A DNA stretch of 64,000 nt from Candidatus Sabulitectum sp. (GTDB taxonomy: Bacteria; Fermentibacterota; Fermentibacteria; Fermentibacterales; JCC-6): positions 1 through 64,000 of the forward strand of contig JAIOSV010000090.1 in assembly GCA_021107435.1 (NCBI GenBank). Direction: 5' to 3'. Under the pieces are notes generated by a model. The model was not told the origin of the DNA. It saw nothing but the letters and a program-made list of their open reading frames with translations, and made no database searches. Within the stretch, counting starts at the first letter, position 1, and the number at the start of each line of letters is the position of its first letter. A program made the translations under genes and the position numbers. Below, piece by piece: positions 47,242 to 62,692 of the stretch.

Positions 47242-47350
<109 letters not shown>

Positions 47351-48947: not shown

Positions 48948-49022
48948 GGCGACGTGGCCAAGTGGTAAGGCAGTGGACTGCAAATCCACCATTCACCAGT
49001 TCGACTCTGGTCGTCGCCTCCA
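48948..49022 (+). tRNA. tRNA-Cys (GCA)
   Basis: A complete 75-base cloverleaf. Acceptor GGCGACG pairs with CGTCGCC, with discriminator T and an encoded CCA. The anticodon stem GTGGA/TCCAC encloses CTGCAAA, giving anticodon GCA. The T arm contains GTTCGACTC. Confidence 0.96.
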
Positions 49023-49131: not shown

Positions 49132-50007
49132 ATGCATAGGGATAGGCTGACACGGCACTCCGTGTTGAGGAAAACCGTACAGCTGGTTACACTGCTGGCC
49201 ACCAATCTGCACCTTTCCGGCTGGGTGGATGGCTCTATTTACACTGGAGCATCCAAAGCAGCAATGATTCCGGGGCTTCACTGCTACAGTTGTCCCTCCA
49301 GCATTCTCGCGTGCCCTGCTGGCACTCTTCAGTCCATTCTGGCAACACCGGGATTCTGGGGTCTGCTGGCAACAGGAAGACCTGATGCACTGATAGTGCT
49401 GGGCGTTGTCGGGTTTATTGCTCTGGTGGGCCTGCTTGCCGGAAGATTTGCCTGCGGATGGTTCTGCCCGTTCGGTCTTCTGCAGGAGCTTCTGTATAAG
49501 ATTCCTTTTCCCAGGATGTCATTTCAGGAGTCTCTGCGGCCCGCGAAGTACGCAATGCTTTTCCTTCTTGTTTTTGCCCTGCCTGCTTTTCTAAGACAAG
49601 TTCCCGGAGGAGCTGGTGATCCCTGGTTCTGCAAGGTTGTATGCCCCGCAGGAACAGTCCTGGCAGGATGGCCGCTGGTTTCTGTTTCAAATGGAGCATA
49701 TCAGCTGGGGTTCCTCTTCTGGTGGAAATCAGCTGTTGCCGTTCTTGTGCTGTTGTGGGCAATGGCTGTTGAACGACCTTTTTGTCGGACATTGTGTCCT
49801 CTGGGGGCAGCATGGGGGCTGCTGGGAAAAGTATCTGTGTTTCGGATGCATGTATCAGATGCCTGTATCAACTGCGGTAAATGCGGTACAGTGTGTCCCA
49901 TGGGAATTGAAATCTATAAAACGCCATCAAGTGCTGAATGCATCCGCTGCGGACAATGCGAAAAAATATGCCCTGTTGACGCGATTTCCCACAGGATAAA
50001 GGGTTAG
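49132..50007 (+). CDS. NapH/YccM-like 4Fe-4S membrane protein
   Basis: A 291-residue polytopic protein with about five helices. Cysteine motifs on membrane loops include CYSCPSSILACPAG, the pattern CGWFCPFG (NapH/NosR type), FCKVVCPAG and CRTLCPLG. The C terminus is a ferredoxin-like pair of clusters: CINCGKCGTVCP and CIRCGQCEKICP. It should pass electrons across or along the membrane. The TlpA-like gene follows after two bases, suggesting a redox pathway for thiols or respiratory proteins. Confidence 0.85.
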   Translation: MHRDRLTRHSVLRKTVQLVTLLATNLHLSGWVDGSIYTGASKAAMIPGLHCYSCPSSILACPAGTLQSILATPGFWGLLATGRPDALIVLGVVGFIALVGLLAGRFACGWFCPFGLLQELLYKIPFPRMSFQESLRPAKYAMLFLLVFALPAFLRQVPGGAGDPWFCKVVCPAGTVLAGWPLVSVSNGAYQLGFLFWWKSAVAVLVLLWAMAVERPFCRTLCPLGAAWGLLGKVSVFRMHVSDACINCGKCGTVCPMGIEIYKTPSSAECIRCGQCEKICPVDAISHRIKG

Positions 50008-50009
50008 TT

Positions 50010-50798
50010 TTGAAAAAGCACCTGTGGATACCTCTTGTCGTGGTTATGATGATACCTGTCTTTGTTGTTTCGCTTTTTCACCATTCACTCGCTGGATCGT
50101 CCGTAAACGGGGCTCTTGTAACTGGAATTCAGTCACTGGACAGTATACTTGTTTCAGCTGTGGGGAGGCCTGTACTGATTAACTTCTGGGCTACATGGTG
50201 CGGTCCCTGTGTGCGGGAGCTGCCTTTGCTTGAAGAACTTGCTCTGGAACTCGGGGAAGATGCCGTGTTTATTGCTGTGGATCTGGGTGATCCGGAGCTG
50301 TCAACGGTGGAGATGTTTCGCGAGAACAACCCTGTGGGAATTACTGTAGTGTGGCTTTCTTCTGAAGAAGCACGTCTGGTATCTGAGCGCTATGAACTGG
50401 CGGATGCGCTCCCTATGACTGTGATTCTCAACGGGCTGGGAGAAGAAACCGCACGGGCAGTTGGTGCCCGGAGCTTTGAATGGTTCGCTTCTGCCATGGA
50501 CGGCGCTTCCGGCGCTGATGCTGAGGTAACTGATGAGGAAACGGATATTCACATATATGTAGTCGGTGCTGCAGATGACGAGGTTGTAGCCTCTCTTATC
50601 ATTGAAGCAGCTGCAATAGCCGGGGATGATGGTTTTGATGTTCTTGATCCGACTGTGCCCCTGGACTCTGTTGCTATGGCAGAGGCCTATCTCCCGGACT
50701 CCGGGTGGCCTTACGCTCAGCTTTGCGTAGGTGGCGCCTGTAATCGGCCTGTCAGCACTCCTGAAGAACTACGTGCTGCATTTGAGAGTATGAGATAG
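50010..50798 (+). CDS. Membrane-anchored TlpA-like thioredoxin protein
   Basis: A 262-residue protein. One N-terminal helix (residues 5-24) anchors it outside the membrane. The thioredoxin domain follows, with active site WATWCGPCVRELP (CGPC) and a cis-Pro region ALPMTV. An extra C-terminal region of about 85 residues (IHIYVVGAADDEVVASLII, then LCVGGACNRPVSTPEEL) has a second thioredoxin-like strand order and a Cys pair, perhaps a second degenerate domain. The start is TTG. It is coupled to the iron-sulfur protein. Confidence 0.85.
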   Translation: MKKHLWIPLVVVMMIPVFVVSLFHHSLAGSSVNGALVTGIQSLDSILVSAVGRPVLINFWATWCGPCVRELPLLEELALELGEDAVFIAVDLGDPELSTVEMFRENNPVGITVVWLSSEEARLVSERYELADALPMTVILNGLGEETARAVGARSFEWFASAMDGASGADAEVTDEETDIHIYVVGAADDEVVASLIIEAAAIAGDDGFDVLDPTVPLDSVAMAEAYLPDSGWPYAQLCVGGACNRPVSTPEELRAAFESMR

Positions 50799-51806
50799 TT
50801 GGGCTCTCCAGCGGTTTCTGTTCTGATGCCTTTCAAAAACACAGATAGATTTATTTCTGTTGCACTGGAATCTCTTGTCTCTCAAACAATGGCTGACTTT
50901 GAAGTGATAATGGTTGATGATGGATCTTCGGATAATTCTCGAAGAATCGCACTTGATTTTTGCAAGCGTGATGCCCGGTTCAAACTATTTGAGGGGGGCA
51001 GAGGGCTGATTTCATCACTTAATGAGGGTCTTTCTGTTGCTCGGGGTAAATGGATAGCAAGATTTGACAGTGATGATATCTGCCACCCTGAAAGACTTGC
51101 TATGCAATTGATGACTGCCGGGAACAACGGAGAGAGTACTGTTGTTTCCTGCCGGGTAAGGAGTTTTCCTCACTCGGAAGTCAGCTCGGGCTTCAGACAG
51201 TATGAGGAATGGATAAACAATCTTGAGTCCCCGGAGGAAATGGAACACAGCCTGTTCATTGAGAGTCCTGTTCCACATCCCACAGCTTTTTACAGCAGAG
51301 CAGCTGTGATTGGTGCCGGGGGATATCGAAACCTGGGTCTTCCCGAGGACTATGAATTATGGCTGAGGCTCTGGAGTCTGGGTTTTAAATATGTCAGGGT
51401 ACCAAGAACACTTCTTGCCTGGAGGGAGAGAACGGACAGGTTCAGCAGAATCAGTTCCATGTACTCTCTTACATCATTCTATAAAGTAAAGGCATTGTAC
51501 CTGGAACATGTACCGTGCCTTCAGAGCAAAAGGGTTTTTGTGGCTGGTACCGGCCAGACAGCCCGCAGGCTGGGTAAACATATCCAGAGACAGGGATTCC
51601 GGATTGAAGCTTTTCTTTCACCGGGTCCTGTACAAAAGGGAAGGGAACTGAGAGGTCGGCCTGTGTTAAGTATCTTCCAATGGAAAAGCGATAAAGGACT
51701 ACCCATAATCGTAGCATCCAGAAAGCCGGGAGCCAGAGCTGCCATCAGAGAATATCTTGAGGGAGAAGGATTACTTAACTGGGTGGATTTTGTGTTATGC
51801 TCGTGA
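50799..51806 (+). CDS. Family 2 glycosyltransferase with C-terminal Rossmann-like domain
   Basis: A 335-residue enzyme. Residues 1-220 are a GT-A fold family 2 glycosyltransferase: SVLMPFKNTDRFISVALESLVSQT, EVIMVDDGSSDNS, the metal motif ARFDSDD and LPEDYELWLRL. Residues 240-335 add a domain starting RVFVAGTGQTARRLGKHIQRQGFRI, like the nucleotide-binding start of sugar-modifying enzymes. Polysaccharide or glycolipid synthesis is inferred. The TTG start directly follows the preceding stop. Confidence 0.85.
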   Translation: MGSPAVSVLMPFKNTDRFISVALESLVSQTMADFEVIMVDDGSSDNSRRIALDFCKRDARFKLFEGGRGLISSLNEGLSVARGKWIARFDSDDICHPERLAMQLMTAGNNGESTVVSCRVRSFPHSEVSSGFRQYEEWINNLESPEEMEHSLFIESPVPHPTAFYSRAAVIGAGGYRNLGLPEDYELWLRLWSLGFKYVRVPRTLLAWRERTDRFSRISSMYSLTSFYKVKALYLEHVPCLQSKRVFVAGTGQTARRLGKHIQRQGFRIEAFLSPGPVQKGRELRGRPVLSIFQWKSDKGLPIIVASRKPGARAAIREYLEGEGLLNWVDFVLCS

Positions 51807-51877
51807 CATTGGTTTGCTAATTATCTATTTTTGATTAGTACGTGAGCGGGCGATTCATCTTTTACAGGAGGCATACA

Positions 51878-52219
51878 GTGAAAATTAAAGAAGAGATCAA
51901 AGACGGAGTAATGGTTATAAGATTGAGCGGCAAGGTGATAAGTGGTCCTGATCTGATGGATCTTAAATCTGTTTTTCAGACAGCAGTCAGTAAAGCAACA
52001 GGGAATGTTCTTCTTGATCTCGGGCATGTCGCATGGATGGACAGCTCCGGTCTTGGTGTTCTGGTCAGTGGCCATACTTCACTGGCAAGAGAAGGCGGGC
52101 GTATGGCTATCCTGAATGCCACAAAGAAGATTCACGAGCTTTTCATAATTACAAAACTTATAACGATATTCGAGACCTTCACTGATGAAAGTGAAGCCCT
52201 CGCCAGCCTTAAGGAATAG
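51878..52219 (+). CDS. STAS-domain anti-sigma factor antagonist
   Basis: A 113-residue STAS protein of the SpoIIAA/RsbV type. The phosphorylatable Ser is in MDSSGLGVLVSGH. In partner switching the unphosphorylated form binds the kinase and frees its target. The GTG at 51878 has ACAGGAGG upstream. It is followed by the RsbW-like kinase after two bases and by a phosphatase-bearing protein, which gives a complete switch. Confidence 0.93.
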   Translation: MKIKEEIKDGVMVIRLSGKVISGPDLMDLKSVFQTAVSKATGNVLLDLGHVAWMDSSGLGVLVSGHTSLAREGGRMAILNATKKIHELFIITKLITIFETFTDESEALASLKE

Positions 52220-52221
52220 CT

Positions 52222-52638
52222 TTGCTTAAGGGGATAGTTCTCAAGATTCCGAGCGATGACATCATTGTGGAAGCTGTACAGATCTTCGTGGAGAAAATTG
52301 GTCTTACCGCAGGCATAAACGAGGAAGATGTTACCGGTTTGTCCATTGCAGTTATGGAAGTAGTTAAAAACTCTATAGAGCATGGCAATGGTGGTGATCC
52401 AAAGAAGCAGGTGACAATACACGTTGATGCTTACCCCGGCAGATTGCAATTTCTGATTGATGATTGCGGCAGCTGGCAGCCTGATGCAGATATGGGGCAC
52501 AAGCCTGGAGAGGGTGAGGCTCTTGTCAGCAGTCGAGGCAGAGGTGTTCTCATTGCACGGAATCTTGCTCGCTGGTTGGATTACGGGTTGAATCCGGAAG
52601 GAAAAACCAGAGTCACTCTGATCTGGCCACTCAGCTGA
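52222..52638 (+). CDS. RsbW-like serine kinase (anti-sigma regulatory factor)
   Basis: A 138-residue HATPase of the RsbW/SpoIIAB type. The N-box is AVMEVVKNSIEHGNGG, the G1 region IDDCGSW and the ATP lid GRGVLIARNLARW. It should phosphorylate the STAS protein and hold a sigma factor or other target. No sigma factor gene is in the window. The TTG start and tight spacing suggest coupling with the STAS gene. Confidence 0.92.
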   Translation: MLKGIVLKIPSDDIIVEAVQIFVEKIGLTAGINEEDVTGLSIAVMEVVKNSIEHGNGGDPKKQVTIHVDAYPGRLQFLIDDCGSWQPDADMGHKPGEGEALVSSRGRGVLIARNLARWLDYGLNPEGKTRVTLIWPLS

Positions 52639-52648
52639 CGGAGTATTG

Positions 52649-55600
52649 ATGGCCCACAGCTTTAAACTGTTTGTCTGGACGGATAGTCACGTCCTTTCAG
52701 CTGGCGAGGGTGCTGTTGTTGTTTCTGAGGCCGGGAAATTACGCGTGCCAGAGTGGGCTGACGGGATGAAACTGGTAGATGAATTCCGGACTTTGAAACC
52801 TGATGCAGCGCTTCTGCTCATCGGCACGAGTCCGTCTGCGCTCGCCCGTTCCAGATTTTTCTCTCTTTTCAGAGAAGGGATACCGTTAGCTGCGCTTGTC
52901 AGCGGAGAACCCTCATTTTCTGAGCCTATTTTTGCAAAACTGAAAGAGTGGAAACGCTGCTGGGCATTCAGAGATCAGGGACACCTTGTTTCCACCATTC
53001 ACAACGCAGTTCAGGACTGGGTTTCCGGTATTAACAAAGGCATGACATCGTATCCTTCAGGAGAGGATCTTATCCGATCCTGGAACGGTGTAGCCGGTGA
53101 ATCCATCGATAGTGAGAGTCTTATTACCGCCTCGGGAATACTCAGGAACAGAGGATTTGTCTGCCTTTCCGGGTCCCCGGGTGCGGGGAAAACCACACTT
53201 GCCCGTCTTCTTCTGATGGAAGCTGCCGATGAAGGGCTTGTCCCTGTTGAACTGGTGGACAACGATGTAGATTCCGGTCGTGTTGAAATGAAATTGCGGG
53301 GTCCTGAAGACTGCGCTCTTCTCTTTGATATTGACTCCATTCGAAGAATGACAATGATCCATCCCCTTCATCTTTTTCATGCGGTGTTTACCATTATTCT
53401 AAGAGCAACTGATTCCCGGAGGAGGGTAGTCCTCACCTCGTCTGATCCCAGGATTTCCGGTCTCTTTTCTTTGTTCGGTGATGCTCATGTTGAACTTCCA
53501 TCCCCGGAGAAAAACAGGCAGTGGAGAGTGAACCAGGGGAAAAAGGCTCTTGAGACTTTCAGAAATCTTGATCTTCTGGCCAAAGCGGAACTGGTTCTTC
53601 TATCACTTTTTGAGCCAATGGTTTCAGAAACAGTTTTCAAAAGTTCTCTCAGGGAGGTCTGGTCAAGACTTCATTTTCTTCTCAGGGAAAGTTTTCCATC
53701 CTCCGGGTCTCTTGACGATATGTATACTGATACCCGGGCCAACAGTGGTATTCTTCCATTCAGGCGGTTGATGATTAGCGGTGAAATGCATCTCTGTAGT
53801 GGCGATACTCTCATTCTTGATGCCGTTGACAAAGGTATGGCAGAGCTTTCAGGAGCTGGAAGTCCTCTTGTCCGAGTGGTCATGGAAACGCTTTTAAACG
53901 GTAACAGTCCCGAGCAGAGAAGAGCCGGTTACAACATCGCACACATGTACAGGCATCTTTCATCCTCGGAGAAATCCAGACTGCTATTTACAGCTTCCAG
54001 AGAAACTCAGGCTGAGGGGCTGATTGATTTCTTTGCCATGCTGCTTGCGGATAAGGAAGCCTTTGACAGGGCTGCTGAGGGGTTTTGCCGTCATATACTC
54101 GAGTCAGGCTCCGCCTTTGCGAGAAGATCTCTGGCACGCTCTTTGGGAAACCCATGGTTAAGAAAAGATCACTACTTCAGGGATCTTGTTGAAATGGCAT
54201 TGAACGATCCTGATGACTCAGTGAGAGCCGGTCTGCTTTTAAGTATTGACATGTGGGGATTTCCCGGTGATCCAGGCAATTTTGTTACGCGCCTCCTTGA
54301 AGATTCATCTCCACTGGTCTTAAGGGTAGTACTATTTTATCTAGGCAGGAAGTTCCCCGATCTTTCAGGAAGGGAAATGAAAATTGTTAATTCTGCCCTG
54401 GACAGAGGAGATACCACAGAGCTTATGGCTCTTGTTAAGGGTCTGATGAACAGGCAACTCGGAGAATTTGAGGAAGAATCCTGTGATCTGCTGTGGCTTC
54501 TCATGCAGCGTCTTCCCGATGGAGGCCGTGGTCTTGTTGCCTTCAACATTGGTGCCCGGATCAGATTCTTCGGAAGTACTATCAGGGATACACTGTTTTC
54601 TGATATCTCAGAGAACGATATCAGAACTGTTGCTCAATGCATGCTGATGAATTATGAAGATCTCACGGCTGGAGAAAAATCTGCTTTATGGAAGCTTATC
54701 TCGGAAAATATGCCTCAGAGCAGTGAGATGGCCAGAATGGTTCTTCCTTACATAATGATATTAGAAGAAACTGAACAAACCGAACTTATTCGTATAACAC
54801 TTGCTTCGGAAAGGTATGGAGCCAGAGAGGCACTTTCACAGCTTCTTGCCAGCGGCAGGAGTGATATTGCCGGAATTGCGGTTGCCGTTATTAAGGGGCT
54901 TCTCAAAAACGGTTCAGTGGAAGAGCGGTCACGGCTGCCATGGTTCATTCTCTGGAACAGGCAGTCTGTTCCGGATAACGCTGATGAAATACTTACCCGG
55001 TTATCCAGGGACATTGATCCATCAGTAAGAAAGGCGGTTGCTTCAGGTATCCGACGCCTGGGAATCATGACTGCATGGAATACTGACCTTTTGAATCACC
55101 TTGCCGAGGATAAGGAGAGATCGGTAAGAGCAGCAGCCGGCGAAGCTTTGGCAGAATTCTCCCGGTCGGGAGAGACAGCGGAACAGATTCATATACTTGC
55201 AGCAGACAACGATCCTTATGTGAGAACAGCAATTCTCCGGGGCATCAGCAATTCTCCATTCCTGAAAGTTGAGGACAGGGCTCACTTTTATTTGAGAGCT
55301 CTTGGAGATTACGATGCCTCAGTAAAGCTTCAAACAATCGGGTCTATTGAAAGGCTGACAAACCTGGACAGTATTCCGGGTCTTGTAGAAAAGATAACTG
55401 AACTTCTCAGTGACAGATCAGAGGATGTGAGGAACGCTGTTGCCCGTCTGGTCACAAGCCATCCGTCTATAACAACTTCCAGAGAACTTCGAGAAAAACT
55501 GCCGGACCTGTATCTGGGAAGACTTACCGGTGGAGACTCTCTTGCGGAGGAATTGAATACTGCCAGAAGAATTCAGATGGGTTTGCTGCCCTCAGAGGCT

Positions 55601-56263
55601 CCCCGGTACGAGAGTTACACAATTGCAGTTCACTACAACCCGGCAAAAGAGGTTGGGGGAGATTACTATGACTTTTTCAGTCTTCCCGATGGAAACCTCG
55701 GCATGGCTGTTGCTGATGTCGCCGGGAAAGGCATTCCCGCCGCGCTGACGATGGCCGGGATGAAGGGCATTCTTGGAGCAAGCGTGAGAAGCCTGTTTGA
55801 TATCAGTCAGATCATGAAAAGGGTAAATTCCGAGCTTACTGTGGAGGGAGAAGTGACCGGACTTGTGGGTCTTTTCTACAGTGTTCTTAATACTCGGAAT
55901 GGTATTCTTACCTACTGTAACGCTGGCCACAATCCACCTCTTCTTGTTTCAAGGACTGGTGATGTCAGATTCCTTGAAGAGGGCGGTCTGCTTATGGGTG
56001 TGGTTAAGAATGCAGACTACAGTCACGGAACCGCGCAGACACATCCAGGTGATGTGCTTGTTCTTTACACTGACGGAATTACGGAAACCATGGATAGCAA
56101 TGATGTTGAATTTGATGTTACAGGGCTTACAGAAACTGTTCTGGAGTACAGGGATCTTAATGCCGAACAGATCGTTGCTCGTGTTCTTAAAGCAATGAAC
56201 ACCCATGGGCAAGGCCTGGCACAGGCAGATGACAGAACACTTGTGGTGGTGAAACACCGCTGA
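52649..56263 (+). CDS. P-loop ATPase-HEAT repeat-SpoIIE phosphatase fusion
   Basis: A 1204-residue multidomain protein. Residues 1-130 form an alpha/beta region like a degenerate receiver domain. A P-loop NTPase follows, with Walker A GSPGAGKTT near residue 174 and Walker B ALLFDID near 222. Residues 300-430 may be its winged or helical end. About 430-970 is a helical solenoid with HEAT-like units (DPDDSVRAGLLLSI, DPSVRKAVASGIRRLG, ERSVRAAAGEALAEF, SEDVRNAVARLV). From about 985 comes a PP2C-type SpoIIE/RsbU phosphatase: VGGDYYDFF, ADVAGKGIPAAL, NAGHNPP, YTDGITE and ADDRTLVVV, with metal Asp residues intact. It should dephosphorylate the upstream STAS protein. GGAG precedes the ATG by five bases. 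Confidence 0.88.
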   Translation: MAHSFKLFVWTDSHVLSAGEGAVVVSEAGKLRVPEWADGMKLVDEFRTLKPDAALLLIGTSPSALARSRFFSLFREGIPLAALVSGEPSFSEPIFAKLKEWKRCWAFRDQGHLVSTIHNAVQDWVSGINKGMTSYPSGEDLIRSWNGVAGESIDSESLITASGILRNRGFVCLSGSPGAGKTTLARLLLMEAADEGLVPVELVDNDVDSGRVEMKLRGPEDCALLFDIDSIRRMTMIHPLHLFHAVFTIILRATDSRRRVVLTSSDPRISGLFSLFGDAHVELPSPEKNRQWRVNQGKKALETFRNLDLLAKAELVLLSLFEPMVSETVFKSSLREVWSRLHFLLRESFPSSGSLDDMYTDTRANSGILPFRRLMISGEMHLCSGDTLILDAVDKGMAELSGAGSPLVRVVMETLLNGNSPEQRRAGYNIAHMYRHLSSSEKSRLLFTASRETQAEGLIDFFAMLLADKEAFDRAAEGFCRHILESGSAFARRSLARSLGNPWLRKDHYFRDLVEMALNDPDDSVRAGLLLSIDMWGFPGDPGNFVTRLLEDSSPLVLRVVLFYLGRKFPDLSGREMKIVNSALDRGDTTELMALVKGLMNRQLGEFEEESCDLLWLLMQRLPDGGRGLVAFNIGARIRFFGSTIRDTLFSDISENDIRTVAQCMLMNYEDLTAGEKSALWKLISENMPQSSEMARMVLPYIMILEETEQTELIRITLASERYGAREALSQLLASGRSDIAGIAVAVIKGLLKNGSVEERSRLPWFILWNRQSVPDNADEILTRLSRDIDPSVRKAVASGIRRLGIMTAWNTDLLNHLAEDKERSVRAAAGEALAEFSRSGETAEQIHILAADNDPYVRTAILRGISNSPFLKVEDRAHFYLRALGDYDASVKLQTIGSIERLTNLDSIPGLVEKITELLSDRSEDVRNAVARLVTSHPSITTSRELREKLPDLYLGRLTGGDSLAEELNTARRIQMGLLPSEAPRYESYTIAVHYNPAKEVGGDYYDFFSLPDGNLGMAVADVAGKGIPAALTMAGMKGILGASVRSLFDISQIMKRVNSELTVEGEVTGLVGLFYSVLNTRNGILTYCNAGHNPPLLVSRTGDVRFLEEGGLLMGVVKNADYSHGTAQTHPGDVLVLYTDGITETMDSNDVEFDVTGLTETVLEYRDLNAEQIVARVLKAMNTHGQGLAQADDRTLVVVKHR

Positions 56264-56288
56264 TTGGGGGAGAATTCTGAAAACACCT

Positions 56289-57062
56289 TTGTTCATTCTG
56301 TCGGACTTTGGCAATTCCGACACATACGTTGCCCAGATGAAGGCTGCAATACTGTCTTTTTCAGGATATGATACTCCCGTGATAGATCTTACCCACATGG
56401 TTGAACCGGGCAATATTATTCAGGCCGCTTATCATCTTAGATCATCGCTTCCGCATCTGCCGGAAGGTTCCGTGACTCTTGCAGTAGTTGATCCAGGCGT
56501 TGGAAGTAGTCGTCTGGGCCTGGCTGCTTTCTGGCGGGGAAGGTTTATTGTAGGGCCGGATAATGGATTAATAACTATGCTGTCCGATCCTTTGAAAACA
56601 TGGAAGTTACCGCCTCCCGAATCCGATTCAGCCCCTACATTTCATGGCAGGGATGTTTTTGCGAGGTGTGCCGCAAGATTGTTGATTGATCCCGGCTGGA
56701 CATCGTATCTTGATCGTCTTGAGAATCCTGTATTACTGGAAGAGCCGAAACCTGTTCTGAATGGCAACACTATGTCTGTAATTATTCTGCATGTGGATTA
56801 TTTCGGTAATTGCATACTGGGTATTACAGCAGATGATGTTCAGCAGTTTTTTCCCATATCCATCTCAACCGGTTCCGGCGATGTTCTCCTGTTTCCAGTC
56901 AGCTCATATCATCAAGCGCCTGAAAGTGACTCCATACTGTTTCTGCAGGGAAGTCAGGGGTTTTACGAGCTGGCCCTGAACGGCAGATCCGCTGCGGATA
57001 TGCTTGGTCTGCGGCCGGGACAACGCATAAAACTCAAAGGAAAATGGAGCAATTCACTATGA
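56289..57062 (+). CDS. SAM hydroxide adenosyltransferase (DUF62)
   Basis: A 257-residue enzyme of the DUF62 family, which cleaves S-adenosylmethionine with hydroxide to adenosine and methionine. Motifs: ILSDFGNSDTYVAQMKA, VIDLTHMVEPGNIIQAAYHL, AVVDPGVGSSR, VGPDNGLITML and FHGRDVFARCAARL, with HVDYFGNCIL later. The TTG at 56289 is the first usual start codon; a CTG at 56277, nearer the GGGGGAG at 56266, may be the true start. It is in the switch operon and overlaps the GH57 gene. Confidence 0.85.
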   Translation: MFILSDFGNSDTYVAQMKAAILSFSGYDTPVIDLTHMVEPGNIIQAAYHLRSSLPHLPEGSVTLAVVDPGVGSSRLGLAAFWRGRFIVGPDNGLITMLSDPLKTWKLPPPESDSAPTFHGRDVFARCAARLLIDPGWTSYLDRLENPVLLEEPKPVLNGNTMSVIILHVDYFGNCILGITADDVQQFFPISISTGSGDVLLFPVSSYHQAPESDSILFLQGSQGFYELALNGRSAADMLGLRPGQRIKLKGKWSNSL

Positions 57063-58186
57063 AGCATATTGGATTCCTGCTTCACTTCTATCAGCCTCCA
57101 ACGCAGGATTCCGAAATCGTTAAAAAGATTGACAGAGAGTGCTACAGACCTCTCTTTCAGTTGCTGCTGGACACTGGTGTGGAAGTTACTGTGAACATGA
57201 ATTACTCCCTTACCGAGCAGTTGGCAAAGTATGCTCCCGAGACACTGGAGATTGTTTCAAAGCTGTCCGGTTGCACTTTCACTTCCAGCGGTGCCTACCA
57301 TCCGATTCTACCGCTTATACCTCCGGAAGAAGTAGAAAGACAAATAGAACTGAATGACAGAGGGAATCTGGAGCTTATCCGGGAAGTCTATCATCCTGAA
57401 GGTATTTTTCCTCCAGAGATGGCCCTGAATATGGATACAGTACGACTTTTGGGTTCCATGGGTTTCAGATGGACAATCACTGATGATGTTCCCTGGGTAT
57501 ATTCTCATTCGGAAGTTCCCGCCAGTTGGATTCCATCTGTTGAAGGAACGGGAGTATTTCTTAGAAGCAACTTCTGGTCCAACCTGATATCCTTTCATGG
57601 AGGCAGCGGTATCGAAATGGTGGACAGGATGGTTAGAGATCTTCATTCGTGGTCAGGGGACGGGGATTCCTATGTGATTCTTGCAATGGACGGAGAAACT
57701 TTTGGTCACCACAGAGATGGGGCCATTAACTCTTTTCTCAAACCTTTCTTTGAGCAGATCACTTCACTGGAGAGGATAAGAATTTCTTCACTCGACAGAA
57801 TTCTGGATGAATTTCCTTTAAAAGAGTGTGCGGTACCATCCGGGAGCTGGTCAACAACTTCAGGTGATCTGGATGCCGGTGAGCCTTTTCCGCTTTGGAA
57901 CAATTCCAGCAATAGAGACCACAAAACCTACTGGGAGTTTTTGAATTTTGTTTTGATGGAATGCAGGAAATCCAACCCTGAAGGGGTTGCAGATTCAGTG
58001 GATAAGATGTTATACTCGTGCCCTCTGTGGTGGGCCTCGACGAGCCGTGAATCTTATTCACAGGTTCGAAGAGGTATTTTACTGGTAATTGAAGCTGCCC
58101 TTAACGGGCTTTCGGAAAGGGCGCTCCTTGACAAAGTCATGGAGCTTGCCGGGCAAATACCGGCTATGGCGCGAAAGGATAGATAA
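57059..58186 (+). CDS. Glycoside hydrolase family 57 protein
   Basis: A 375-residue GH57-type enzyme. The family motifs appear as HIGFLLHFYQPP (motif 1), SGAYHPILPLIP (motif 2), GIFPPEMALN with the nucleophile-region Glu (motif 3) and AMDGETFGHH with the acid Asp (motif 4). The length is that of the short GH57 members, close to an amylase or branching enzyme core. The substrate is probably an alpha-glucan. I prefer ATG 57059, which overlaps the DUF62 stop; ATG 57044 is possible. Confidence 0.85.
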   Translation: MKHIGFLLHFYQPPTQDSEIVKKIDRECYRPLFQLLLDTGVEVTVNMNYSLTEQLAKYAPETLEIVSKLSGCTFTSSGAYHPILPLIPPEEVERQIELNDRGNLELIREVYHPEGIFPPEMALNMDTVRLLGSMGFRWTITDDVPWVYSHSEVPASWIPSVEGTGVFLRSNFWSNLISFHGGSGIEMVDRMVRDLHSWSGDGDSYVILAMDGETFGHHRDGAINSFLKPFFEQITSLERIRISSLDRILDEFPLKECAVPSGSWSTTSGDLDAGEPFPLWNNSSNRDHKTYWEFLNFVLMECRKSNPEGVADSVDKMLYSCPLWWASTSRESYSQVRRGILLVIEAALNGLSERALLDKVMELAGQIPAMARKDR

Positions 58187-58386
58187 TGGCGAAGAAAGAA
58201 AGAACATTTGCAGCGAAACTTGCGCATGAGAGTCGTACATCTCACAAAGAGACATGTCCTGTATGCGGTAAGGAAAAGACCCCTATTGTATACATTGCTG
58301 CCCGCACAGGGCTGAAGGACACCTGGCGCCCCCAGCGTAGAAGAATTAAAGTTTGTGATTGCAACAGGAAAGAGATATACGGATAA
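58186..58386 (+). CDS. Small zinc-ribbon-like protein
   Basis: A 66-residue basic protein with a CPVC knuckle and a CDC pair 38 residues later, which together could bind one zinc. The N terminus AKKERTFAAKLAHES and RRIKVCDCNRKEIYG look conserved, but I cannot name the family. It starts in the stop of the GH57 gene (TAATG) and overlaps the MurU-like gene by 32 bases. Confidence 0.65.
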   Translation: MAKKERTFAAKLAHESRTSHKETCPVCGKEKTPIVYIAARTGLKDTWRPQRRRIKVCDCNRKEIYG

Positions 58387-59248
58387 ATTATCCGCTAAAC
58401 GCATTCAGGGGGTTCTGTTCCTTACTGCCGGTTACGGCACAAGAGCAGAACCCCTTTCTTTTTGCCGTCCGAAGGCTCTTCTGCCATGGCAGAGTACTAC
58501 ACTTCTCAGCAATCTTGTAAGTCAGTTCGCGGTTCTTGATCTGGAAATCATGGCCTTCAACGCGTCAAGGTGTCCGGAACTTGTTCTTCAGGAGGGTAGC
58601 AGGCACTGGAGCGGCAAGACAAAACTGCTTTTTGAAGAAAGACCTCTAGGCCTTCCAGGAACACTTTCGCGGAACAGGGAAATGTTCAAGGGTGACTGGA
58701 TTGTAGTGAATACCGATATGGTTCTTGATGTACCGGTGGAGGAAATGGTTGAGTTTCACCTGATGTCCGGCTCCAGGTGGACAGTGCTCACGGGGAATTT
58801 TCCGGATTTTGGTAATTATGGCGGTTTACACCTGAATGGAAGAATTTGCCACTACCTGGGGATCAGCATAATATCTCCGGAAATTGTGGCTCTCGCCGCA
58901 AGAGAACAGCTGGGGACCGGATACTTTACAAGTCTGAGGAGCGCGGCGAAGGCCGGGAACATTTCCATCAGAGAGTTTTTTACAGATTCACAATGGCTTG
59001 ACATGGGCGAGGTTCACCTCTTTCGGAAACATCTTCTCTCTCAGGGAAGTTATATTCACCCGTCTGCTCAAGTCCATGATGAAGCTACTCTCGGGGGCTT
59101 TTATTGGATTGGTAGTTCGTGTATAGTTAATCGTGGTGCGGTAATCCGGGATTCCGTTATGCTTGAAGGGTCAATCCTTTTGCCCGGAAAGTCGCTTATC
59201 GGTTGTGTTTTGCCGTGGTTTTCAAATAAGGAGCTTGAGATTGACTGA
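58355..59248 (+). CDS. MurU-like sugar-1-phosphate nucleotidyltransferase
   Basis: A 297-residue NDP-sugar pyrophosphorylase. The nucleotide motif is FLTAGYGTRAEPLSFCRPKALLPW; other family segments are VNTDMVLD (metal Asp) and WLDMGEVHLFRKH. A left-handed beta-helix tail follows (SYIHPSAQVHDEATLGGFYWIGSSCIV). Pairing with the AmgK-like kinase suggests uridylylation of MurNAc-1-phosphate, the cell-wall recycling route known in Pseudomonas, or a related sugar. The GTG at 58355 is the frame's best start, though no strong ribosome binding site is visible. Confidence 0.8.
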   Translation: MIATGKRYTDKLSAKRIQGVLFLTAGYGTRAEPLSFCRPKALLPWQSTTLLSNLVSQFAVLDLEIMAFNASRCPELVLQEGSRHWSGKTKLLFEERPLGLPGTLSRNREMFKGDWIVVNTDMVLDVPVEEMVEFHLMSGSRWTVLTGNFPDFGNYGGLHLNGRICHYLGISIISPEIVALAAREQLGTGYFTSLRSAAKAGNISIREFFTDSQWLDMGEVHLFRKHLLSQGSYIHPSAQVHDEATLGGFYWIGSSCIVNRGAVIRDSVMLEGSILLPGKSLIGCVLPWFSNKELEID

Positions 59249-60251
59249 GCGAATGGAGGATCTTACACGCTGGATAGGAGAGAGATACAGCGCAGCCAGC
59301 AGCATTACTTCCATTGCCGGTGACGCATCAGACAGAGATTTCTATCGGATGGAATGCGGTGGAAAATCTTTCGTCGTGATGGATAGTTCCCGTACTCCTC
59401 TATGGCCCTGGCTCGATATATACGGTCTTCTCAAAGGAATGAATTTCCCGTTGCCCGAGATTCTCCTTCGTGATGAAGTACACGGATATGTCATTCAGGA
59501 GGATCTTGGGAACACCCGTCTTTGCGATGTGGAGCAGGATGAGAGCTACAACGCATATCTGAGTGAATCGCTCGGGCTTCTTAAGCGGCTTCAGCGCGAG
59601 ATCACTCCGGAACTTGCCAGTAACAGCATAGCAGGAAGAAGATTTTTTGCTCCCAGTTTTTTCATGGCAGAGCTTGAGCATACTCTTGAACACCTTTTTT
59701 TCAGGCTGCTTCGCGTACCGGTTGAAGATCTGTTTGTGCTTCAAGGCCATTTCAGAGAACTTTCTCAAAGAGCTACCGGACACGCTAAAACTGTATTCAC
59801 CCACAGAGATTTTCATTCCGCGAACCTGTTAATCCACAAAGGTAGAGTACACATTATTGACTGGCAGGATGCACGCCAGGGACCTCCATGCTACGATCTT
59901 ACCAGCATTCTCAGGGACAGCTACAGGGATTGCGGTGACAGGTGGAAGGGTCTGGCATCTTCATACATTCTCGGAATAGGCGGCTCAAATATGTTTGGCT
60001 TTGTTTTCAGTGCCCTGCAGAGAAACCTGAAAGCTATCGGAACATTCGCTTATCAATACAGAGTTCTTGGAAACGACAAATATCTCAAGTACATTCCACT
60101 GACACTGCGCTATTTTGAAGGCTACTCAAAGGTATGTCCGGCAGTTAAACCGACTGTAGACACTGTTATTAATCTTATCGACACACACACTGGTGAAATA
60201 GATCTGAGGAATTTCAGAGATTCCGATTCACCAGTGAGGATCAACCTGTAA
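59241..60251 (+). CDS. AmgK-like sugar kinase (APH fold)
   Basis: A 336-residue aminoglycoside-phosphotransferase-fold kinase. SITSIAGDASDRDFYRM holds the glycine loop, VIQEDLGN the hinge, FTHRDFHSANLL the catalytic loop with Asp and Asn, and IIDWQDARQGPPCYDLTSIL the metal Asp. This pattern matches AmgK, which phosphorylates MurNAc and GlcNAc at C1. The TTG at 59241 has AAGGAG eight bases upstream and overlaps the MurU-like stop by eight bases; ATG 59253 is an alternative. Confidence 0.85.
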   Translation: MTERMEDLTRWIGERYSAASSITSIAGDASDRDFYRMECGGKSFVVMDSSRTPLWPWLDIYGLLKGMNFPLPEILLRDEVHGYVIQEDLGNTRLCDVEQDESYNAYLSESLGLLKRLQREITPELASNSIAGRRFFAPSFFMAELEHTLEHLFFRLLRVPVEDLFVLQGHFRELSQRATGHAKTVFTHRDFHSANLLIHKGRVHIIDWQDARQGPPCYDLTSILRDSYRDCGDRWKGLASSYILGIGGSNMFGFVFSALQRNLKAIGTFAYQYRVLGNDKYLKYIPLTLRYFEGYSKVCPAVKPTVDTVINLIDTHTGEIDLRNFRDSDSPVRINL

Positions 60252-60268
60252 AGACTGAAAGAGGAAAA

Positions 60269-61258
60269 ATGGAGAGAATTCTTACCGGTGACAGGCCCAC
60301 CGGGTCCCTTCACCTGGGGCATTTCGCGGGTTCACTAAGAAACAGGGTAAAACTTCAGGATCAGTACGAAACATTTATTATTGTAGCTGATATACAGGCT
60401 CTTACTACCCACTGGGAGACTCCTGAGCTTATCAGAACCAATGTTCGTGAAGTGACTCTGGATAACATCGCGGCGGGTCTTGACCCGAAGAAAACCAGCA
60501 TATTCGTTCAGAGTATGGTTCCCCAGATCGCAGAGCTTACGGTGCTTTTCGGGCTTTACACCACAGTCAGCCGTCTTAAGCACAACCCCACCATCAAGAC
60601 AGAAGCAAAACAATACGGCTTTACCGATATGACATATGGATTCCTTGGATATCCGGTGAGTCAGGCAGCAGATATTCTGTTCTGTCGCGCTGACCTTGTT
60701 CCAGTGGGCGAAGATCAGCTTCCTCATATTGAGGTTACGAGGTTTATTGCCAGAAGGTTTAATGAGCTTTACAGCGAGGTTTTCCCGGAGCCTAAGGCCG
60801 GGGTCAGCGAGATTTCAAGACTGATCGGACTGGATGGAAACACCAAGATGAGCAAATCTCTTGGTAATGCCATCTATTTGAAGGATGATTCCCGGACAGT
60901 AAAGAAGAAGGTGATGAGTGCGGTGACTGATCCGGCCAGGATTCACAAGACAGATCCCGGGCATCCGGATATATGTACCATATTCGCGTATCACAAAGCT
61001 TTCAATGCCATGGAAGTACCGGAGATCGAGGAATCCTGCAAAAAGGGCACAATTGGATGCGTTGCCTGTAAGAAGAATCTGATCAGAAAACTGGAAGAGA
61101 TTCTTGCCCCTATCAGGGAGAGAAGGGCAGAGTATGATAAACCCGGCGTGATAGAAGACATCCTTATCAGCGGCACAGCGAGGGCTGCTGAAGCGGGAGC
61201 GGAAACTATGGCTTTGGTCAGAGAAGCCATGCATACAAATTACTGGAAAGAGAGATAG
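60269..61258 (+). CDS. trpS: Tryptophanyl-tRNA synthetase
   Basis: A 329-residue class Ic synthetase. The HIGH motif reads GSLHLGHF near residue 14, and KMSKS is intact near residue 195 (TKMSKSLGN). VADIQALTTHWETP, GYPVSQAADILFCRADLVPVGEDQLPHIE and a CVACKKN cysteine pair are also seen. Length is normal. GAGGAAAA precedes the ATG. It sits between the sugar kinase and cysS. Confidence 0.96.
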   Translation: MERILTGDRPTGSLHLGHFAGSLRNRVKLQDQYETFIIVADIQALTTHWETPELIRTNVREVTLDNIAAGLDPKKTSIFVQSMVPQIAELTVLFGLYTTVSRLKHNPTIKTEAKQYGFTDMTYGFLGYPVSQAADILFCRADLVPVGEDQLPHIEVTRFIARRFNELYSEVFPEPKAGVSEISRLIGLDGNTKMSKSLGNAIYLKDDSRTVKKKVMSAVTDPARIHKTDPGHPDICTIFAYHKAFNAMEVPEIEESCKKGTIGCVACKKNLIRKLEEILAPIRERRAEYDKPGVIEDILISGTARAAEAGAETMALVREAMHTNYWKER

Positions 61259-61264
61259 CGAAAA

Positions 61265-62692
61265 ATGCTTTCCCTTTACAACACAATGACCAGACAGAAA
61301 CAGGAGTTTACTCCATTGGCCCCGCCATTTGTGGGGCTGTATGTCTGCGGTCCTACAGTATACGGAGACAGCCATCTTGGACACGCTAAAAGTTATGTGA
61401 GTTTTGATGTTCTTCTAAGATACCTCAGGTATCTTGATTACAAAGTCAGGTATGTACAGAACATTACTGATGTGGGTCATCTTACAGATGATGCTGATTC
61501 AGGAGAGGACAAGCTGCAGAAACAGGCAAGGCTGGAGAAGCTTGAACCCATGGAAATAGCAGAGAAGTACACCGCAAGCTATTTCCGTGATATGGATCAT
61601 CTGGGCAATCTGAGACCCGATATCTCGCCCAGAGCCAGCGGACACATTCCCGAGCAGATAGAGCTTATTAAGATACTCTTCGAGAAGGGACATGCTTATC
61701 AGGCCGGAGGCAATGTGTACTTCGATGTTTCTTCTTTTCCCGATTACGGTAAACTCAGTGGCAGGATAGGTGATGACCAGAAGAGCGGTACCCGTGTCTG
61801 TTCCGCTGATGACAAGAGAAACCCCAGAGACTTTGCGCTCTGGAAAGATGCGGGAGAGGATCACCTCCTCAGGTGGGACAGCCCGTGGGGCTGGGGATAC
61901 CCCGGCTGGCATCTGGAATGCTCTGCTATGGCCATGCGCTATCTTGGGGAAACAATAGATATTCATGGTGGCGGTCTTGATAATGTCTTTCCACACCATG
62001 AGTGCGAAATAGCCCAGTCCACAGCAGCAACAGGCAGGGAATTCGCCAGGTACTGGATACACAACAACATGGTAACTGTAGACGGCAGGAAAATGGGTAA
62101 GAGTCTGGGCAATTTCACTTTTCTTAGAGACCTGTTTGAACAGTGGGATCCAATGGTTGTAAGGCTCTACATTCTCAGAAGTCACTACAGAAGTCCACTG
62201 GACTTTTCAGATGAGGGGTTTGCAGGGGCAAAGAGCGGTCTTGAAAGGCTTCTTTCCTTCAGATCAAGGCTGGGCAGCCGGGAAGCCGGAGTGCCAGCAC
62301 AGGCAGTATTAGACCTTGTTGAGAAAACGGAGGCTGAGTTTAGAAAATCCATGGATGATGATCTGAATACTCCAGAAGCACTTGCGGCTCTTTTTAAGTT
62401 CGTCAGGGACGGTAACATCGTTCTGGGAGGACAACCCTCCGAAGGAGATAAATACGAAATGGCAGCTCTGCTGGATCGTCTTGCAACCGGTGTTCTGGGA
62501 ATTGAACTTACTTCCGGGAGCAGTGGAGGATCATTAGAAGACCTCTGCAGAATTCTCGGGGAACTCAGGGGATATCTCAGGAAAAACAAGCTTTTTACGG
62601 AAGCAGACAAATTGAGGAACGATCTTGCTGATGCGGGGTTTTCTGTACATGACCTCTCCGGTGGAGTCAGCGAGGTGACGCCGGATATCTGA
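61265..62692 (+). CDS. cysS: Cysteinyl-tRNA synthetase
   Basis: A 475-residue synthetase. [29 protein letters not shown] carries the first zinc Cys and the HIGH motif; [12 protein letters not shown] and HHECEIAQS supply more zinc ligands; KMGKSLGNF is the KMSKS motif. The C-terminal helical anticodon region is complete. It follows trpS by six bases and ends the operon. Confidence 0.96.

Follow-up and report, generated by a model that had tools for sequence, protein, structure and literature searches.

A predicted partner-switching gene trio of Candidatus Fermentibacterota whose SpoIIE phosphatase carries a P-loop NTPase and a HEAT solenoid

The partner switches RsbU/RsbP/RsbV/RsbW-SigB and SpoIIE/SpoIIAA/SpoIIAB-SigF are built from a STAS antagonist, a GHKL serine kinase, and a SpoIIE/PPM phosphatase. 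One proposal treats bacterial PPM phosphatases as a modular output to which a coiled-coil linker connects inputs of the PAS, receiver, GAF, and HAMP types (PMC12143880). Experiments on RsbU have established that control passes from the linker to the switch helices, and this mechanism has been argued to hold generally (PMC12143880, PMC5468089). For the Rba partner switch of Rhodobacter capsulatus, a cognate sigma factor was not identified (PMC3999984). Here, we describe a gene trio with the same three components as the SigB and SigF switches. As in RsbU-type enzymes, a linker helix stands ahead of the phosphatase domain, but an NTPase-HEAT input replaces the RsbT-binding, PAS, GAF, HAMP, or receiver input of those switches. 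On our best reading, this is a phylum-specific partner switch with an NTPase-HEAT input on the phosphatase.

The trio is found in a 3.38 Mb draft genome (~92% complete). Among named genomes, those of Candidatus Sabulitectum, Aegiribacteria, and Hyd24-12, in the phylum Candidatus Fermentibacterota, are its closest relatives. In the window (the whole 64,000-nucleotide stretch of DNA that was analyzed), the STAS, RsbW-like kinase, and phosphatase genes are tandem open reading frames on the plus strand at positions 51878 to 56263, with intergenic gaps of 2 and 10 bases when the conserved start codons at 51878 and 52649 are used. The first of these codons is GTG, with AGGAGG 6 bases 5' of it. The second is ATG, and counting from it gives the phosphatase the same length as in a preliminary description made from the sequence. 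The features are as follows (window coordinates).

51878-52219, plus strand: STAS-domain antagonist of 113 amino acids with the phospho-site motif MDSSGLG (Pfam STAS, 7.2e-14; TIGR00377, above cut-off).
52222-52638, plus strand: RsbW/SpoIIAB-like GHKL serine kinase of 138 amino acids, TTG start (HATPase_c_2, 1.8e-17).
52649-56263, plus strand: 1204-residue phosphatase comprising an N-terminal alpha/beta domain, P-loop NTPase, winged-helix-like segment, HEAT solenoid, linker helix, and SpoIIE (PPM) domain (profiles, alignment, and AlphaFold2 model).
52649-53032, plus strand: N-terminal five-strand alpha/beta domain with a receiver-like strand/helix order and no phospho-acceptor Asp (AlphaFold2 model and column check).
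53069-53503, plus strand: P-loop NTPase core, with Walker A at residues 175-183 (53171-53197) and DxD at 227-229 (alignment, AlphaFold2, and Foldseek).
53504-53863, plus strand: helical, winged-helix-like segment 3' of the NTPase (AlphaFold2 secondary structure: helices and a hairpin at 370-383).
53864-55528, plus strand: HEAT-type alpha solenoid (HEAT_2 profile and PDB profile matches).
55529-55603, plus strand: linker helix with the motif EEL..AR.IQ...LLP (invariant in the alignment).
55604-56260, plus strand: SpoIIE/PPM phosphatase domain (Pfam SpoIIE, 2.6e-42 at residues 1014-1204).

The open reading frames and Pfam profiles bear out the adjacent STAS, kinase, and phosphatase genes of the preliminary description, and an NCBIfam scan of the three proteins agrees with Pfam at the superfamily level. 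This gene order is kept in 31 operons, in all of which the acceptor-serine stretch of the STAS protein (D55-S56-S57-G58-L59) and the N-box E46 and N50 (catalytic Glu and Asn) and RGRG loop of the kinase are invariant. The SpoIIE metal-site aspartates D1005, D1023, D1142, and D1194/D1195 are likewise present as expected and invariant, and the Pfam match confirms the SpoIIE domain of the preliminary description. The catalytic or acceptor residues of all three proteins are unchanged among the ~30 relatives compared, and by every sequence criterion tested the genes make up a complete partner-switch trio. The kinase is the only stand-alone HATPase_c_2 protein of the genome, which also encodes one clear stand-alone STAS protein; a second STAS match is weak and lies inside a 391-residue frame. 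The linker motif and metal-site aspartates are common to the two other SpoIIE phosphatases of the genome. These are encoded at L001 (G000:C123) and L002 (G000:C8), where the open frames are 406 and 773 residues long.

Receiver-SpoIIE phosphatases (RssB-type, 3eq2/3es2) match the phosphatase by sequence in the SpoIIE domain and the stretch directly before it. At the N terminus, the receiver-like region noted in the preliminary description held up in its strand/helix order, as seen in the AlphaFold2 model, but not in sequence relationship or phospho-acceptor. The alignment columns at the end of strand 3, where the acceptor Asp of a receiver was sought, hold N, G, D, E, or S; the conserved Lys is missing as well. 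Compared by profile with 29 receivers that this genome encodes, the domain returned a probability of 0.8%. Identification of this domain as a true receiver is therefore unsupported by sequence. Unlike RssB-type enzymes, the phosphatase has no phosphorylatable receiver, and ~800 residues of NTPase and HEAT solenoid separate its N-terminal domain from SpoIIE.

Both parts of this intervening module are well conserved. The Walker A residues of the GxxxxGKT motif (G175, G180, K181, and T182) are invariant in 30/30 full-length sequences, as are D227, D229, R232, and R233, and the AlphaFold2 model of residues 2-425 (alignment of 8 sequences; pLDDT 78, pTM 0.63) contains the five-strand alpha/beta domain, a P-loop NTPase, and the winged-helix-like segment. 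HEAT_2 matches the phosphatase at 7e-14 and is found in 17/17 members, and a profile of the region matches alphaRep proteins and the PP2A A subunit in the PDB with E-values of 1e-15 to 1e-25. The repeats are strongest at residues ~770-940, and the first half of the solenoid (~410-770) is less certain. The P-loop (GSPGAGKTT) and long HEAT-like solenoid of the preliminary description thus stand, and its proposal that they take the place of a PAS, GAF, HAMP, or receiver input is supported by sequence. The whole phosphatase is 36-88% identical within the phylum, and dN/dS is 0.01-0.18 across all of its domains, NTPase and HEAT parts included, indicating purifying selection. These values and the invariance of Walker A and D227-x-D229 argue that the architecture did not arise by chance.

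Compared with sequences from outside the phylum, the architecture is unusual. Across 343 genomes from other phyla, a profile of the NTPase module gave no convincing match; its two hits were short and lay at the P-loop. The P-loop is present in 0/71 of the closest SpoIIE relatives outside the phylum, the ten longest of which carry GAF, PDZ, or Cache-HAMP domains. On 335 plasmid records the SpoIIE domain matches ordinary phosphatases, and the N-terminal 980 residues gave 0 matches to plasmid records. Among the papers searched, none has SpoIIE together with HEAT repeats, and the one in which STAND, SpoIIE, and NTPase all occur is unrelated. Some databases list cyanobacterial multidomain proteins with kinase, ATP-binding, and SpoIIE parts; such proteins would combine an NTPase with SpoIIE independently.

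Within Candidatus Fermentibacterota, the phosphatase was traced in 39/42 genomes, and its N-terminal 975 residues are matched whole or in part in 37/42. Contig ends account for a phosphatase fragment in one genome (G024) and for the apparent absence in the two further genomes of the 39 (G018 and G029), where the gene is cut beside SAM_HAT. The three remaining genomes are G044 (61% complete), G047 (66% complete), and G013 (98% complete). G013 lost precisely the trio and nothing else at the locus: STAS, kinase, and phosphatase genes are all gone, GT2 and SAM_HAT lie 156 bases apart, and the rest is collinear. A genome-wide search of G013 for the kinase found none. In G011 (L068, G011:C3), the phosphatase frame is in several pieces, possibly through assembly errors or decay. 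All Candidatus Fermentibacterota genome records named in this analysis are metagenome assemblies.

Based on these observations, we consider it reasonably probable that the trio is a dedicated, phylum-specific partner switch in which the NTPase-HEAT input would gate the phosphatase by way of the linker and switch helices usual for such enzymes. The kinase is predicted to phosphorylate Ser56/57 of the STAS protein and would then be free to bind its target; removal of the phosphate by the large phosphatase would let the STAS protein capture the kinase and so release the target. A single dedicated switch is suggested by the retention of catalytic and acceptor residues, by genes that travel together, and by the presence of only one clear stand-alone STAS protein and RsbW-type kinase, and the trio-only loss in G013, where the kinase is absent, supports this explanation. 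The STAS protein could be a substrate of the two other SpoIIE phosphatases of the genome as well, which would count against a dedicated switch. Less certain than the phosphorylation cycle is control of the phosphatase by its N-terminal half. Such control is suggested by the fusion of this half to the linker helix, by its conservation, and by the linker mechanism argued to be general (PMC12143880, PMC5468089). Nucleotide binding or hydrolysis at the P-loop may be coupled to the binding of a ligand or partner on the HEAT solenoid, and the coupled change might alter the geometry or oligomeric state of the linker helix and thereby the SpoIIE switch helices. The architecture suggests in this way that ATP-driven sensing may control the switch. 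Beside the inputs proposed for PPM phosphatases, an NTPase-HEAT module would form a different class, on which the generality of the modular-output rule could be tested (PMC12143880).

What such a switch would control is a question raised by its retention across a phylum together with the lack of a SigB/F-type sigma factor. The genome has nine sigma70_r2 matches, three of which are non-ECF-like by inspection. No sigma factor was found near the trio, in agreement with the preliminary description, and genome-wide (~92% complete) the three non-ECF-like proteins all fall below the cut-off of the SigB/F/G model TIGR02980, a difference from the SigB and SigF switches. The target is thus probably not a SigB/F-type sigma factor, judging from these profiles; candidates are two short RpoD/RpoS-like sigma factors encoded elsewhere in the genome (C44 and C60) and a non-sigma protein. 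We give a sizeable but less than even chance to the trio being a conventional anti-sigma system, unusual in its input, that acts on the C44 or C60 protein. This proposal concerns the output and is compatible with the dedicated switch favored above. The two RpoD/RpoS-like proteins speak for it, but none of the sigma factors reaches the SigB/F/G subfamily cut-off or lies nearby, and partner switches without an identified cognate sigma factor are described elsewhere. Rba shares this absence with the trio, according to parts of its report; unlike here, those parts do not mention an NTPase-HEAT phosphatase (PMC3999984).

We also considered whether the P-loop binds nucleotide structurally or as an energy-charge sensor, with the HEAT solenoid serving as a docking scaffold to a partner or location and no STAND-like switching. 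The Walker B motif is DxD, and an invariant S265 ends the presumed sensor-1 strand; neither a DD/DE Walker B nor a sensor-1 Arg was found in the alignment of 30 NTPase sequences. Since Walker B is DxD, hydrolysis cannot be judged from sequence. These substitutions fit a structural role, as do the frequent use of HEAT solenoids as scaffolds and the profile match to the PP2A A scaffold. However, Walker A, D227/D229, and R232/R233 do not vary across the phylum, beyond what a structural role usually needs, and we regard this alternative as possible but rather doubtful.

The STAND NTPases that carry C-terminal repeats (nSTAND3, Avs, Sso1545, and animal SAMD9) resemble the phosphatase in having a P-loop NTPase ahead of a repeat solenoid, with a segment between them that looks winged-helix-like in the AlphaFold2 model, but here the sequence link is weak and limited to the P-loop, Walker B is DxD, and the effector, the phosphatase, is C-terminal. 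A Foldseek search with the AlphaFold2 model returned SAMD9 at the top, followed by AAA+ proteins, several of them receiver-bearing (NtrC4, NtrC1, and LuxO); the STAND proteins Avs5 and Sso1545 were also among the matches. Because TM-scores over the whole query were low (0.4 or less) and the matched folds mixed, we place the NTPase within the P-loop AAA+/STAND group and choose neither. Pfam nSTAND3 (PF20720) matches at 2.9e-8 over the P-loop only (positions 6-55 of 155), and hhalign aligned 55 columns there. The nSTAND3 model also matches at E<=0.001 in 120/121 genomes and 14/14 control genomes, mostly through its P-loop part, so partial matches to it say little, and we set the match aside as evidence for STAND. 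The STAND likeness proposed in the preliminary description thus persists in the domain succession and the Foldseek matches to SAMD9, Avs5, and Sso1545, but not in the P-loop-only nSTAND3 match, the DxD, or the missing sensor-1 Arg. We think it unlikely that the phosphatase is a STAND-like, ligand-triggered NTPase-HEAT sensor in which ATP-driven rearrangement would activate the PPM domain toward a non-sigma output; if true, an NLR-like sensor would be wired to serine phosphorylation control at an ordinary housekeeping locus throughout a phylum. That the N-terminal half is a defense-type, SAMD9- or Avs-like STAND sensor with the phosphatase as effector is very improbable: Foldseek matches to SAMD9 and Avs5 and weak PADLOC matches to HEAT/ARM and P-loop models favor it, but the latter span only the repeats or the P-loop, and the slow evolution of the module and its vertical, single-copy, syntenic inheritance in 39/42 genomes are unlike those of defense genes.

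The trio belongs to a block of ~12 genes (window 49132-62692) whose order is kept across Candidatus Fermentibacterota. It contains genes for a ferredoxin-like protein, TlpA, and GT2, then the trio, SAM_HAT, GH57, a nucleotidyltransferase, an APH-like kinase, TrpS, and CysS. Two tRNA genes lie 5' of the conserved block, at window positions 47242-47314 and 48948-49019.
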